From NCBI GenBank assembly GCA_948468535.1, contig CAOKIL010000007.1, positions 1 to 40,014 of the forward strand: DNA of 40,014 nt, in the 5' to 3' direction. Origin of the DNA: an uncultured Eubacteriales bacterium (GTDB lineage Bacteria > Bacillota > Clostridia > Monoglobales > Monoglobaceae). The position numbers were made by a program, and so were the translations under genes. This document shows, piece by piece, positions 18,394 to 38,558 of this stretch; within the stretch, counting starts at the first letter, position 1; the number at the start of each line of letters is the position of its first letter. The notes beneath the pieces were generated by a model, which saw nothing but the letters and a program-made list of their open reading frames with translations, made no database searches and had not been told where the DNA came from.

Positions 18394-18419
18394 TTATATA
18401 TTAATATTTTTATCTATAA

Positions 18420-18473
18420 TTATTTATTCTTTAAATATTCATCTATTGACGCTGCGGCGGTTTTTCCGGCTCC
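18420..18473 (-). pseudogene. Second, divergent copy of the nfnB 3' end (17 codons plus stop)
   Basis: Translation gives GAGKTAAASIDEYLKNK and stop, identical to the last residues of NfnB (which has one more Ala). At nucleotide level about half of the codons differ, nearly all at third positions (for example TTA/TTG, TAT/TAC, GAA/GAG). It is therefore not a recent duplication. The homology ends sharply at 18473/18474, where the structured repeat begins. It is probably the remnant of an nfnB paralogue or the original gene end displaced by the repeat. Confidence 0.85.
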
Positions 18474-18588
18474 CTCGTCGCAACACCTTTCACTCAATCG
18501 CTTCTCCGCAAGCGGATAAGCTCAACCGCCATTACAGGGTTGCTCCTCTCAACTCAAAGCACACGGCTTTAAGTTGTAAAAACAACTT
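18474..18588 (-). repeat. Structured dispersed repeat, copy R1 (RNase P 5'-domain-like)
   Basis: Read on the minus strand it contains GTGTGCTTTGAGTTGAGAGG followed by a stem GCAACCC/GGTGTTGC closing over an inner hairpin and ending CGACGAG. The same order and fold occur in copy R2 (36836-36950) and in the 5' part of rnpB. It fills the space between the stop codon of nfnB and the second nfnB tail. A small hairpin AAGTTGT-AAAA-ACAACTT (18571-18588) directly follows the nfnB stop. Confidence 0.8.
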
Positions 18589-19986
18589 TTACGCCTTATT
18601 TTTCAAGTACTCGTCTATTGACGCCGCCGCGGTTTTTCCGGCTCCCATGGCGAGGATTACGGTTGCGGCGCCTGTAACGACGTCACCGCCGGCATACACA
18701 CCCTGCTTGCTTGTTGCTCCGGTTTCCTCCTTCGCAACTATACAGCCCCACTTGTTTGTCTCAAGGTCAGGGGTTGTGTTTTTGATAAGCGGATTAGGCG
18801 TCTGACCGATTGCGATAACAACCACATCTGCATCTATATCAAACTCACTGCCTTCTACCGGCTGCGGTCTGCGTCTGCCTGATGCGTCAGGCTCGCCAAG
18901 TTCCATTTTGATACATGTAACGCTGTCAACCCAACCCTCATCATCTCCGTTTATCTTGACAGGATTATTAAGAAGTTTGAATTCTATTCCCTCTTCCTTT
19001 GCATGGTGTACTTCTTCAAGACGCGCGGGCATTTCCTCTTCGCTTCTTCTGTATACTATACAAACATTCTCTGCTCCAAGTCTCTTTGCTGAACGCGCTG
19101 CATCCATTGCTACGTTTCCTCCGCCTACAACCACTACGTTCTTGCCGACATAAATCGGGGTATCGTATTCCGGAAACTTATACGCCTTCATCAGATTGAT
19201 TCTGGTTAAGAACTCATTTGCCGAATATACGCCATTAAGCGATTCACCCTCAATCTTCATAAAGCTCGGAAGTCCTGCGCCTGTACCGATAAACACTGCA
19301 TCAAAGCCTTCTTCTGTAAGCAGTTCTTCAACAGATAAGACTTTGCCGATTACCATGTTTGTCATTACTTCAACGCCCATATCCTTTAGCTTCTGAACCT
19401 CAGCGGCAACAATGTCCTTCGGCAGTCTGAACTCAGGGATACCATAAACCAAAACTCCGCCCGGTGTATGGAATGCTTCAAACACAGTAACTTTATATCC
19501 AAGTTTAGCTAAATCGCCTGCACAAGTGAGACCTGACGGTCCTGCACCGACAACAGCTACCTTCTTGCCATTTGGCTTTGGTGCTTCCGGCTTTTTATCA
19601 CAGTTCTTCATATACCAATCTGCAACAAATCTCTCCAGACGTCCAATCGCTACCGGTTCGCCTTTTATGCCGCGAACACAATATTTTTCACACTGGCTTT
19701 CCTGAGGACATACACGTCCGCAAACAGCCGGCAATGAGCTTGTCTCTTGAATTTTGAGATAGGCGTCCTCAAACTTACCTTCTGCAACAAGTGCGATAAA
19801 TTCCGGGATTTTAACCATAACAGGGCAGCCCTGCATACAAGGCTTATTCTTACAGTTCAGACATCTCGCCGCCTCTTCCTTTGCCATTTCCTCTGTATAT
19901 CCGGTTGAAACTTCTTCAAAGTTCTTATTTCTTACATTTGGGTCTTGCTCAGGCATTTTTACCTTTTCAAGTGACATATTAGGCAT
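18589..19986 (-). CDS. nfnB: NfnB-type large subunit: FAD/NADPH [4Fe-4S] oxidoreductase (GltA/SudA-like)
   Basis: 465 residues. N-terminal four-helix domain with cysteines in CLNCKNKPCMQGCP and a second set CGRVCPQESQCEKYC for iron-sulphur clusters; FAD site VVGAGPSGLTCAGDLA; NADPH site VVGGGNVAMDAARSAKRLG; C-terminal GGDVVTGAATVILAMGAGK. The frame resembles glutamate synthase small subunit, but the neighbour is not a large GOGAT subunit. With the gene just upstream it makes NADH-dependent reduced ferredoxin:NADP+ oxidoreductase, which bifurcates electrons. GGAGGG precedes the ATG; it overlaps nfnA by 8 bases. Confidence 0.92.
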   Translation of the reverse strand: MPNMSLEKVKMPEQDPNVRNKNFEEVSTGYTEEMAKEEAARCLNCKNKPCMQGCPVMVKIPEFIALVAEGKFEDAYLKIQETSSLPAVCGRVCPQESQCEKYCVRGIKGEPVAIGRLERFVADWYMKNCDKKPEAPKPNGKKVAVVGAGPSGLTCAGDLAKLGYKVTVFEAFHTPGGVLVYGIPEFRLPKDIVAAEVQKLKDMGVEVMTNMVIGKVLSVEELLTEEGFDAVFIGTGAGLPSFMKIEGESLNGVYSANEFLTRINLMKAYKFPEYDTPIYVGKNVVVVGGGNVAMDAARSAKRLGAENVCIVYRRSEEEMPARLEEVHHAKEEGIEFKLLNNPVKINGDDEGWVDSVTCIKMELGEPDASGRRRPQPVEGSEFDIDADVVVIAIGQTPNPLIKNTTPDLETNKWGCIVAKEETGATSKQGVYAGGDVVTGAATVILAMGAGKTAAASIDEYLKNKA

Positions 19987-34567: not shown

Positions 34568-35650
34568 ATGAGTAGAGTTTACAACTTTTCGGCAGGTCCT
34601 TCAATGCTTCCTTTGGAAGTCCTCAGGAAGGCACAGGAAGAAATGCTTGACCAGGGCGGCAGCGGTCAATCTGTAATGGAAATGAGCCACAGAAGTTCAG
34701 AATATCAGGCGATTATTGATAAGGCAGAAGCTACATTCCGCGAAATCATGAACGTTCCTGACAACTATAAGGTACTGTTCCTGCAGGGCGGAGCTTCAAC
34801 ACAGTTCGCTATGGTTCCGCTTAATCTTGGCAACGGTTCAAAGACCGCAGACTATGTTACAACCGGTCAGTGGGCAAAAAAGGCTCTCGCCGAGGCAAAG
34901 CGTTATATCACAGCTAACGAAATCGCTTCAAGTTCAGACAAGACATTCTCATATCTTCCGGATGTTAACAAAAGTATGCTTACACCCGGCGCTGATTATG
35001 TACACATTACATACAACAACACTATCTACGGCACACACTATAACACAATGCCTGACTTTGGAGAAGCAACAGTGGTTACTGATATGTCATCATGTATTCT
35101 TTCAGAAGAAGTTGACTTCACCAAGTTCGGTCTTGTTTACGCAGGCGCTCAGAAGAACATGGGTCCTGCCGGTGTAACGGTTGTTGTTGTCCGTGATGAC
35201 TTAATCGGCAATGCGGCAGACATCACGCCTACAATGCTTAACTATGAAACACATTCCGAAAACGGCTCAATGTTCAACACACCGCCGACATACGGAATCT
35301 ATATCTGCGGTCTTGTTTTTGAATGGATCAAGAACATGGGTGGCGTAAAGATTATGAATGAAAAGAACGTTGAAAAGGCAAAAGTTCTGTACGACTTCCT
35401 TGACAACTCAAAAATGTTCAAAGGAACAGTTGTAGAAAAAGACCGTTCGCTCATGAACGTACCGTTTGTTACAGACAGCGACGAGCTTAACGCAAAGTTC
35501 ATTGCAGAGTCAAAGGCACAGGGATTTGTTAACCTCAAAGGTCACAGAACAGTTGGCGGTATGAGAGCAAGTATCTATAACGCAATGCCTATCGAAGGCG
35601 TAAAAGCTTTGGTTGACTTCATGACTAAGTTTGAAAAGGAGAATTCATAA
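34568..35650 (+). CDS. serC: Phosphoserine aminotransferase
   Basis: 360 residues, PLP enzyme that transfers an amino group from glutamate to 3-phosphohydroxypyruvate. Motifs: MSRVYNFSAGPSMLPLEVL, FLQGGASTQFAMVP, VTDMSSCILSE and the PLP lysine in YAGAQKNMGPAGVTVV. GGAGGAG before the ATG at 34568 excludes the longer frame from 34541. Its stop overlaps the serA start by one base. Confidence 0.97.
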   Translation: MSRVYNFSAGPSMLPLEVLRKAQEEMLDQGGSGQSVMEMSHRSSEYQAIIDKAEATFREIMNVPDNYKVLFLQGGASTQFAMVPLNLGNGSKTADYVTTGQWAKKALAEAKRYITANEIASSSDKTFSYLPDVNKSMLTPGADYVHITYNNTIYGTHYNTMPDFGEATVVTDMSSCILSEEVDFTKFGLVYAGAQKNMGPAGVTVVVVRDDLIGNAADITPTMLNYETHSENGSMFNTPPTYGIYICGLVFEWIKNMGGVKIMNEKNVEKAKVLYDFLDNSKMFKGTVVEKDRSLMNVPFVTDSDELNAKFIAESKAQGFVNLKGHRTVGGMRASIYNAMPIEGVKALVDFMTKFEKENS

Positions 35651-36810
35651 TGTATAAGATTCAAACATTAAATAAGATTTCAAAAAAGGGTCTGAGCGTT
35701 CTCGGCAAGAACTACGACATATCTGATGAATGTGAAAATCCTGACGGCATTATCCTCAGAAGCTATAAGATGCACGACATGAAACTCCCTGCAAGCCTAA
35801 AAGCTGTAGCAAGAGCAGGGGCAGGAGTTAATAACATTCCGATTGACAAGTGCAGTGAAAATGGCATCGTTGTATTCAATACTCCTGGTGCAAATGCAAA
35901 TGCCGTTAAGGAACTCGTTATCTGCGCTCTTCTTCTTTCATCAAGAAAGGTAGTTCAGGGTATTGAATGGGCAAAAACGCTCAAAGATGAGGGCGATCAG
36001 GCAGGAGCTTTGGTTGAAAAGGGCAAGTCTAACTTTGTAGGACCTGAAATCGAGGGCAAAACTCTCGGCGTTATCGGTCTTGGTGCAATCGGAGTTAAGG
36101 TTGCAAACGCGGCTCATCACTTAGGCATGAACGTTATCGGCTTTGACCCGTATCTTTCTGTTGATGCAGCTTGGCACCTGACAAGATTTGCCGAAAAGGC
36201 AAACAGCCTTGAAGATTTGCTTGCCGCATCTGATTATATAACAATACATGTTCCGGCAACTCCGTCAACAAAAGGCATGATTAATTCAGAAGCGTTTGCA
36301 AAAATGAAGAAAGGCGCAAGACTTCTCAACTTCTCAAGAGATACATTGGTTGACAGCGCAGACGTTCAGGAAGCTTTGGCTGACGGAACACTTTCGGCTT
36401 ACATCACAGACTTTGCAACAGCAGAACTGCTCAATAACGACAAAGTTATCTGCATGCCCCACCTCGGAGCATCAACACCTGAAAGCGAAGAAAACTGTGC
36501 TGTTATGGCGTCAGAAGAAATCAAGGACTTTTTGGAAAACGGAAATATTAAAAACAGCGTTAACTATCCCGCTTGTGACATGGGCGAAAAAAGCGGCGTG
36601 CGTATCACAATCGCACACAAGAATATCCCTAACGTCCTCAAGCATATCACAGATATGATTTCATCAAAGGGTATTAATATTGATAACATGCTCAACAAGA
36701 GCCGCGGTGACTATGCATATACAATGCTGGATCTTAAAGAAAAGATTGACCCTGCTGTTGAAAGCGAAATCGAAGCAATCGACGGAGTAATCAAAGTTAC
36801 TCTGCTTTAA
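35650..36810 (+). CDS. serA: D-3-phosphoglycerate dehydrogenase with ACT domain
   Basis: 386 residues, first enzyme of serine synthesis. NAD-binding TLGVIGLGAIGVKVANAAHHLGM, substrate-site arginine region ARAGAGVNNIPID, catalytic His in MPHLGASTPESEENC. The C-terminal 75 residues form an ACT-like regulatory domain (RITIAHKNIPNVLKHI), which in relatives binds serine. An AAAGGAG at the end of serC is its ribosome site. Confidence 0.97.
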   Translation: MYKIQTLNKISKKGLSVLGKNYDISDECENPDGIILRSYKMHDMKLPASLKAVARAGAGVNNIPIDKCSENGIVVFNTPGANANAVKELVICALLLSSRKVVQGIEWAKTLKDEGDQAGALVEKGKSNFVGPEIEGKTLGVIGLGAIGVKVANAAHHLGMNVIGFDPYLSVDAAWHLTRFAEKANSLEDLLAASDYITIHVPATPSTKGMINSEAFAKMKKGARLLNFSRDTLVDSADVQEALADGTLSAYITDFATAELLNNDKVICMPHLGASTPESEENCAVMASEEIKDFLENGNIKNSVNYPACDMGEKSGVRITIAHKNIPNVLKHITDMISSKGINIDNMLNKSRGDYAYTMLDLKEKIDPAVESEIEAIDGVIKVTLL

Positions 36811-36835: not shown

Positions 36836-36950
36836 AGGTTTTAAAACAACTCAAAGCCGTGTGCTTTGAGTTGAGAGGAGGAATACCGTAGCAGTGAAGC
36901 TTTTCGGCGAACAGCCGAAAACGCAACAGCGCAGGCTATTCCGACGAAGT
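36836..36950 (+). repeat. Structured dispersed repeat, copy R2 (RNase P 5'-domain-like)
   Basis: Begins with hairpin AACTCAAAGC-CGTGT-GCTTTGAGTT (36848-36872), then GAGAGGAG, a stem GGAATACC/GGCTATTCC enclosing hairpin TTTTCGGC/GCCGAAAA (36901-36921), and ends CGACGA. The layout follows copy R1 and the start of rnpB. The first hairpin could act as the serA terminator, although no T tail follows. Confidence 0.8.
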
Positions 36951-37060
36951 ATCACAGATGATAGCGCGTCAACATAGACAATAGCGATTAGAGATTAGCG
37001 AATAGTAAAATCTGCGACCGCACGATTTTCAGAGACGATATGGTGACCTGCTCACCCACC

Positions 37061-37082
37061 GTAGGGGCGGATATTATCCGCC
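37061..37082. repeat. Short palindromic repeat with GTAGGGGCGGATA core
   Basis: GTAG followed by GGCGGATA-T-TATCCGCC. This GC-rich element resembles the short GTAGGGGCG... palindromes scattered through many gut Firmicutes genomes (from memory). The surrounding 36951-37130 contains no gene and looks like degenerate repeat sequence. Confidence 0.5.
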
Positions 37083-37130
37083 TGCAAATCAAAAACGCTT
37101 TTTAAAACAAATCCGCAACAAAACTCCTAT

Positions 37131-37213
37131 GGGTTTTAAAACAACTTAAAGCCTGTGACCCACATCTTTGATGTGGTATGTTCAAACTGAATGTTGTGCT
37201 CAAATTTGAGAGG
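37131..37213 (+). repeat. Degenerate partial repeat, copy R4
   Basis: GGTTTTAAAACAACTTAAAG at the start and GTGCTCAAATTTGAGAGG at the end match the beginning of R1/R2. Between them is a 40-base insert with a hairpin CCACATC/GATGTGG. Confidence 0.55.
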
Positions 37214-37243
37214 TCAATAAATTACTCAGTTATGCAGAACACT

Positions 37244-37625
37244 GTGCTTTACGTTGAGAGGAGGAAACTCGTAGCGCAATGAGCTTTCTTGCTTGCAAGA
37301 AAGTGATAGAGTGGAGAGATTTCCGACGTGAGGAAAGTCCGGGCTCCATAGGGCAGGATGCAAGCTAACGGCTTGTGGAGGCGACTCTAAGGAAAGTGCA
37401 ACAGAAATATACCGCCCGAATTTTTTGGGTAAGGGTGAAAAGGCGAGGTAAGAGCTCACCCGGTGATATGGCGACTTATCACCGCTGTAAACCCCATCCG
37501 GAGCAACACCTGAATCGAAGATTAAGCCGGCCCGGCACCTTCGGAGATTGGTGGCTAGAGGCGTGTGGCGACATACGTTCGAGATAGATTATCATCCGCG
37601 ACAGAACCCGGCTTACGTGATGCTT
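37244..37625 (+). ncRNA. rnpB: RNase P RNA, class A
   Basis: Catalytic RNA of RNase P, which matures tRNA 5' ends. Universally conserved segments are present in order: GAGGAAAGTCCGGGCTCC (P4), ATAGGGCAGGATGC, GTGCAACAGAAATATACCGC, AAGGGTGAAAAGG, GTAAACCCCATCCGGAGCAA and ACAGAACCCGGCTTA (P4 3' strand). Ends are estimated from P1: GCTTTACGT (37246-37254) pairs with ACGTGATGC (37615-37623). The 5' domain (P2-P3 region, 37255-37325) is unusual in matching dispersed repeats R1 and R2. Confidence 0.95.
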
Positions 37626-37636
37626 AAAATTATTTT

Positions 37637-37675
37637 AAAATTGATGCCGCAGCATATTGCTGCGGCATCAATTTT
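37637..37675. terminator. Bidirectional terminator between rnpB and yitT
   Basis: AAAATTGATGCCGCAGCA and TGCTGCGGCATCAATTTT form an 18-bp stem with a TAT loop and T runs on both strands. It overlaps the yitT stop codon. Confidence 0.95.
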
Positions 37676-38558
37676 ATCTGTTATTCTTAGTTTTAAATCC
37701 GAATCCTATTACTTCTTTAACATCACTGACAATAACAAAAGCGCCATCATCTATCTCCTGCACAATCTCCTTTAGTTTAGGAAGCTGATACTTTCGCATA
37801 ACACACATCAGAACATTTCTTGTCTTTCCCGAATACATTGAAAACCCAGACAAAGCAGTAGAACCACGGTTAAGCTCCTCCGCTATCTTTTGGGAAATCT
37901 CCGGTTCTCTTTCTGAAATCACATATACCATTTTGGCAAAATCCATACCATCAATCATTGTATCCGCCAAATATGAGCTAACAAAGAGCATAACCGCAGA
38001 ATACAAAATTGTGTCCAGCCTTCCGAATGCCAATCCGGCAGCAGTAATTATTACACCATCTATTATAATAATAAACTGCCCTACAGAAAACTTCGGGAAC
38101 CACTTTTTAAGCACAAGCGACAGAATATCTGTTCCGCCCGTGGTTCCTCCCACTCTCATGGCAAGTCCCAATCCAAAGCCATACAGAGCTCCTCCTAAAA
38201 TTGAACACAAAAACATGTCATTTGACACAGGAAGAAATCTTGTAAAAAACTCCGATTCAAATAACTGAGTGGATACCGAGAGCGCAAGAGTTCCGATTAT
38301 TGAAGTAATCAAAAAACGTGAATCAAAGTTCACAAATCCGAGAATAAAAATCGGAATATTAAGCACAAGCACCATAATTCCGACCGGCAGATTAAACAAG
38401 TGATACAGCACAGTTGCAATACCGCTGACGCCTCCCGCCGCAATTTCTGACGGAACAAGAAAGAATATCAGCGCAAATCCCATAATAAATCCGCCGACAA
38501 TAATTGATAATGTGTTCTCAAACCGTTTGTTCTTCAAAACGGATAAGCTCATCTTCAT
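37674..38558 (-). CDS. YitT-family membrane protein (DUF161 + DUF2179)
   Basis: 294 residues: five to six membrane helices (IVGGFIMGFALIFFLVPSEIAAGGVSGIATVLY, GGALYGFGLGLAMRVGGTTGGTDILS) and a cytoplasmic C-terminal DUF2179 domain (SGKTRNVLMCVMRKYQLPKLKEIVQEIDDGAFVIVSDVKEVIG). Function not established. GGAGG precedes the ATG. Confidence 0.93.
   Translation of the reverse strand: MKMSLSVLKNKRFENTLSIIVGGFIMGFALIFFLVPSEIAAGGVSGIATVLYHLFNLPVGIMVLVLNIPIFILGFVNFDSRFLITSIIGTLALSVSTQLFESEFFTRFLPVSNDMFLCSILGGALYGFGLGLAMRVGGTTGGTDILSLVLKKWFPKFSVGQFIIIIDGVIITAAGLAFGRLDTILYSAVMLFVSSYLADTMIDGMDFAKMVYVISEREPEISQKIAEELNRGSTALSGFSMYSGKTRNVLMCVMRKYQLPKLKEIVQEIDDGAFVIVSDVKEVIGFGFKTKNNR

Follow-up and report, generated by a model that had tools for sequence, protein, structure and literature searches.

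Why should the 5′ end of an essential ribozyme gene look like a repeat that is scattered through the rest of the genome? The question is raised by the RNase P RNA gene (rnpB) of a gut Monoglobus-type bacterium, whose assembly comprises 1.80 Mb in 129 contigs and is approximately 79% complete; the window analyzed here is the whole of contig C7 (40,014 bases). RNase P RNA is an essential ribozyme that trims tRNAs. An initial annotation of the window described three copies of a structured repeat, two of them free-standing (R1 and R2) and one at 37241–37345 that was taken for the start of rnpB, and offered two directions of transfer: either fragments of rnpB had spread, or a mobile RNA element had replaced the P1–P3 part of the gene. 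When the rnpB 5′ domains of related genomes were compared, both directions proved wrong; the sister RNAs carry no copy of the element inside them. A third explanation is very probably correct, namely that the element, hereafter E, inserted in the P3 loop, that later repeats nested within it, and that the RNA is read through, with the insert looping out and RNase P remaining active.

The resemblance itself is genuine. R1, R2, and the 37241–37345 region have the box in common, along with a closing stem that covaries, an inner hairpin, and a CGACG tail, and the window contains GTTGAGAGGAG three times (18543, minus strand; 36870, plus strand; 37253, plus strand), compared with 0.34 occurrences expected in shuffles with one mismatch allowed. 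The initial annotation was also right that sequence varies while pairing is kept: covariation of the closing stem over 13 genomic copies was 0.605, compared with 0.228 in shuffled alignments and at most 0.265 when partners were slid, and two-sided changes were present in 14 of 20 pairs among 11 full copies, with strong covariation in both H1 and S2. E is a non-coding element of approximately 105–115 bp with two hairpin domains, and it is built from GGTTTTAAAA, hairpin H1, GAGAGGAG, a stem (S2) around a hairpin of copy-specific sequence, and CGACG. R1 (18474–18588, minus strand; covariance model score 91.1 bits at 18475–18577) sits between a gltA-type glutamate synthase gene and gdhA, both assigned by NCBIfam, and R2 (36836–36946, plus strand; 88.8 bits at 36846–36947) adjoins the 5′ end of rnpB P1. 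The three copies are real but are not the full complement; an 11-copy covariance model, run genome-wide, returned 24 strong matches (E-value below 1e-5).

The box common to R1, R2, and the rnpB region is what would favor the spreading of rnpB fragments through the genome. Against this, the common part is the insert and not rnpB, no copy was seen with any rnpB core, the rnpB genes of the same genus have no E inside the RNA, and the same element family was matched in 42 of the 60 genomes searched (this genome counted in). We consider this account almost certainly wrong.

E is instead a family of hairpin elements that is widespread and has not been described before. No Rfam family matched it, the matches being limited to the neighboring RNase P, tmRNA, and tRNA genes plus weak chance matches outside E, and its identity as an RNA known to Rfam was therefore rejected. 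Terminal inverted repeats, a MITE criterion, are absent: the 5′ end GGTTTTAAAACAA and the 3′ CGACG are not inverted copies of one another. A search for the Y1 (TnpA/RAYT) transposase, PF01797, found none in the 79% complete assembly, and a REP or IS200-IS605 origin was rejected on that basis. By eye, no target site duplication was evident at R2 or in P3, and R1 is flanked by a duplicated gene tail of approximately 53 bp. E is a dispersed element that conserves its structure and is probably mobile.

Two copies have surroundings of their own interest. Around R1 (18411–18645, minus strand), two versions of the glutamate synthase 3′ end, approximately 53 bp long (GAGKTAAASIDEYLKNK), differ mostly at synonymous positions, which suggests that R1 and a diverged glutamate synthase gene end were imported together. 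At another locus (L006, 1460–1520; contig C19: 15840–15927), an H1-like hairpin and, after it, GAGAGGAG immediately precede an ATG of the downstream gene, and this 5′ part of E may serve as the ribosome-binding site of that gene.

Where, then, does rnpB begin? The Rfam RF00010 match covers 37295–37627 and scores 236.7 bits, far above the curated threshold of 100 but the lowest in the genus (251–273 bits in the others). In 11 sister genomes, rnpB starts with sequences such as GAGTATAACTGATGATTGCGCG, followed by a small P3 hairpin and then the conserved GAGGAAAGTCC. The genus consensus, AGTATAACTGATGATTGCGCG, has a single match in the window at three or fewer mismatches (36948–36968; 0.01 expected by chance), directly 3′ of R2, as in the relatives, and approximately 360 bases 5′ of GAGGAAAGTCC. 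The gene is thus annotated as a class A RNase P RNA with a P3 insertion at 36947–37625 (plus strand), on the basis of the Rfam match, the upstream P1–P2–P3 5′ strand, and pair counts; it is approximately 679 nt long with the insert and 325 nt without it. An element is indeed physically joined to rnpB, as had been proposed, but 37241–37345 is not the start of the gene, whose true 5′ strand lies at 36947–36970.

All three helices can be closed from this upstream strand. According to the alignment and pair counts, the P1 5′ strand AAGTATCAC (36947–36955, plus strand) pairs with GTGATGCTT at 37617–37625; the P2 5′ strand GATGATA (36957–36963, plus strand) pairs with TATCATC at 37590–37596; and the P3 5′ strand GCGTC (36966–36970, plus strand) pairs with GACGT at 37325–37329, across the insert. 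When nine species were aligned without the insert, 97.8% of P1, P2, and P3 cells were paired and 11 of 21 pairs had two-sided changes; covariation was 0.493, compared with 0.178 for shuffled alignments and no more than 0.091 after partners were slid. P2 formed all seven of its pairs in all nine sequences, and its last pair, A-U, is unique to the window species. P1 has two-sided changes unlike those of the sister species (its outer pair is A-U and its seventh is C-G), and it was present in the minimum free energy fold of a 683-nt RNA. All P3 cells were paired, with two-sided changes in three of five pairs. Compensatory P1 and P2 pairs that are unique to this species indicate that the split 5′ strand and the rnpB 3′ end coevolved as parts of one RNA. 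One point counts against an insertion: the closing stem of P3 is just five pairs long, and on its 3′ strand it shares bases with the CGACG tail of E.

The same pairs bear on the proposal that a mobile RNA element replaced P1–P3 and is now the 5′ domain of rnpB, which we judge very unlikely. It agrees with the Rfam alignment, which begins within the element and threads the element's GUGAUA against the P2 3′ strand, but many of the P1 and P3 pairs in that threading are non-standard, and genuine P1, P2, and P3 strands, homologous across the genus and bearing compensatory changes, lie upstream. P1 and P2 survive at 36947–36963, and P3 closes around the insert. Insertion also accounts for the appearance of a replaced domain: the Rfam model is unable to span the insert, so that P1–P3 is threaded through the element with non-standard pairs and a low score, and E resembles an rnpB 5′ domain because it sits inside rnpB. 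Other long rnpB matches to Rfam in the order (L046, L057, and L061) have short, normal P3 hairpins, and their extra length is elsewhere.

E-type elements also adjoin rnpB in sister genomes (L053, L055, L056, L060, L062, L065, L066, and L067), where the GACG(AG) tail of the element can pair with CTCGTC 3′ of rnpB; this pairing can lengthen P1, as if the end of the element had been absorbed by the ribozyme. Consensus scans revealed no sigma-70 promoter-like site 5′ of the window rnpB, a point against the insertion explanation, although most relatives likewise gave none; for that reason the scans lend no support to a promoter shift caused by R2.

The P3 insert is composite. It occupies 354 nt (36971–37324, plus strand) and is missing from the same-genus and same-family rnpB genes that were examined. 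Its junction, CGACGYGAGGAAAGTC, was found in this genome only and in none of 390 other Clostridia genomes (391 in all), a search that covers this junction alone and not every possible P3 insertion. From the 5′ side, the insert contains four degenerate 7-base units (CAATAGC GATTAGA GATTAGC GAATAGT; 36979–37006, plus strand), which are a small part of its length and have matches of 24–38 nt at other genomic loci, and a palindromic repeat, CGTAGGGGCGGATATTATCCGCC (37060–37082, plus strand), with a partial match at contig C71. The E copy inside P3, R3, spans 37132–37329 on the plus strand; the covariance model matched it at 37229–37329 (46.7 bits, E-value 3.3e-8) and its 5′ end was identified by a DNA match. 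R3 consists of the 5′ end GGTTTTAAAACAACTTAAAG, the H1 stem (37142–37151/37247–37256), the GAGAGGAG box, the S2 stem (37263–37267/37320–37324) enclosing an inner hairpin (37284–37292/37295–37303), and the CGACG tail. Nested in the H1 loop of R3 is a second dispersed repeat, M2 (37153–37236, plus strand), with 15 further copies in the genome, the best at 89% identity. M2 (CTGTGACCCACATC..GATGTGG..GTCAATAA; L151–L165) is found alone and also nested, at two different places, within E copies. Just 5′ of R3, CTTTTTAAAACAAATC at 37098–37116 is possibly what is left of the 5′ end of a further E copy, which hints that the P3 site received insertions more than once.

An insertion of this size in an essential gene invites the suspicion that the locus is a decayed rnpB and that the assembly missed an intact second gene. 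The large insertion and an assembly that is 79% complete speak for this reading. Against it, this is the only rnpB found in that assembly, the relatives also gave one match each, and the window gene occupies the orthologous position behind serA. This neighbor is a serA-type phosphoglycerate dehydrogenase gene (35650–36810, plus strand; an NCBIfam PGDH match under the curated cut-off) that is 87% identical at the protein level to that of Candidatus Monoglobus merdigallinarum, the nearest named relative by this gene, and the order serA then rnpB is kept in relatives (L070, L071, and L072). The rnpB core shows no decay: there were no departures at 167 columns that are invariant in 17 relatives, and the distance to the outgroup was 40 differences, compared with 40 and 44 in sister species, so there is no acceleration. 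R3 has diverged and bears a nested repeat, which speaks against a recent lethal event, and for the same reason the P3 insertion is unlikely to be brand new. A decayed locus is improbable, and the approximately 679-nt ribozyme is probably functional. A HARP-type protein-only RNase P was considered as a backup enzyme and rejected, as none was found in the assembly.

Repeats at the junctions of a metagenome-type assembly could likewise have been joined artificially. Gene order is intact on both sides, however, P3 closes precisely around the insert, and the longest exact match between R2 or the insert and the other loci compared was 34 nt (15 nt between R2 and the P3 insert). Misassembly is unlikely because these shared exact words are short and the gene order is as in the relatives; we give an artifact very little credence.

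The insertion, the divided P1–P3, its compensatory pairs, the intact core, and the E family are established from sequence; the events at this locus would then have run as follows. One E copy, R2, came to lie directly 5′ of rnpB, and another entered the hairpin loop of P3. M2 and similar repeats would have entered the P3 copy later, producing the 354-nt insertion. Transcription presumably runs through the insert because E, oriented as it is here, lacks a terminator on the strand of rnpB. A scan of the plus strand detected no terminator-like site within the insert; an intrinsic terminator-like hairpin was found by sequence scan 3′ of rnpB (37636–37676, plus strand). The 5′ strand of P1–P2–P3 would pair as usual while the insert loops out from P3 and stays clear of the catalytic core, and RNase P would stay active either as a single RNA of approximately 679 nt or after the loop has been trimmed. 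In a variant of the insertion explanation, and not its opposite, the P3 insert would be excised, which would leave an RNase P RNA in two pieces joined through P1 and P2. The insert is hairpin-rich, and P1 and P2 together provide 16 pairs; the intervening sequences of 23S rRNA, which give fragmented rRNA, are a precedent. The sequence analysis gave no sign of cleavage, and we regard excision as possible but rather doubtful.

The position of R2 against P1 belongs to a wider pattern. It is the CGACG end of E, never the opposite end, that adjoins stable RNA genes. In this genome, 7 of the 24 copies lie 0–3 nt from the ends of tRNA or tmRNA genes (L168, L169, L174, L177, L180, L182, and L188), at the 3′ ends of tmRNA, tRNA-Tyr, two tRNA-Pro, tRNA-Thr, and tRNA-Trp and at the 5′ end of tRNA-Glu. 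Among relatives, 13 of 84 copies lie 0–4 nt from such ends (L203, L211, L213, L231, L241, L242, L248, L249, L252, L262, L272, L273, and L278), and over both sets the 3′ end is used most. For 7 of 24, a binomial estimate falls under 1e-13 even when only 12% of the genome is taken as open to insertion; this figure is rough, as 50 tRNA and tmRNA genes were assumed and shared ancestry was uncorrected. Related elements are found at the same place as R2, adjoining rnpB P1, in several sister species. E lies inverted at the 3′ ends of tRNA genes; in the direction of the gene, it begins right at the CCA and reads as a strong hairpin followed by a T-run, as in the tmRNA example GTCGGAGCAAAGTTCGCTTTGCTCCGAC-TTTATTTTTT. 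The opposite strand of E thus reads as an intrinsic terminator at tRNA and tmRNA 3′ ends, and some copies probably act as terminators; in the rnpB orientation, E would not stop transcription. More speculatively, E could be an unrecognized mobile RNA-level or terminator-like module of Clostridia with a dedicated mechanism that directs it precisely to stable RNA gene ends (tRNA CCA ends, tmRNA, and rnpB P1), where it would supply terminators or processing signals; the same targeting might have put E into rnpB P3, with its CGACG tail joining the P3 helix. We offer this only tentatively.

Among known systems, Vioque is said to have described, in 1997, STRR heptanucleotide repeats in the rnpB of heterocyst-forming cyanobacteria (cited as reference 108 of PMC2858038). 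These are likewise genome-dispersed short repeats within an RNase P RNA gene that is functional in a bacterium, and the window insert also has 7-base units; in contrast to STRR, it fills the P3 loop with 354 nt of nested elements of several kinds, a structured element of two domains among them. Rickettsia palindromic elements are selfish palindromic repeats tolerated inside essential genes, alike by description in placing palindromic repeats in an essential gene, although their host phylum differs from that of the window. BOX elements have a modular build. In Streptococcus pneumoniae, they are small non-coding interspersed repeats (PMC3049150). E is also a small non-coding interspersed repeat of a Gram-positive bacterium but, compared by description, is unlike BOX in sequence and architecture (H1, GAGAGGAG, S2 with its inner hairpin, and CGACG) and adjoins the ends of stable RNA genes. 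The RNase P RNAs of CPR bacteria have enlarged or missing helices, such as P15 and P12 (PMC8172020); they too are natural helix variants that misalign with standard covariance models through their extensions, whereas the window RNA has a mobile-repeat insertion in P3. At approximately 679 nt, the window RNA would be longer than the published range of 250–550 nt (PMC7191817). Searches of a limited literature collection gave no direct precedent for repeat insertions in rnpB or for tRNA-adjoining repeats.

The locus offers a natural experiment on the amount of foreign RNA that an essential ribozyme can accommodate in its P3 loop, and it illustrates that automatic annotation of rnpB can mistake a mobile element for a ribozyme domain. 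The element family also raises the question of why, in several families of Clostridia, copies of one dispersed hairpin family stop exactly at tRNA and tmRNA genes (position 0), and whether these copies may be portable terminators.
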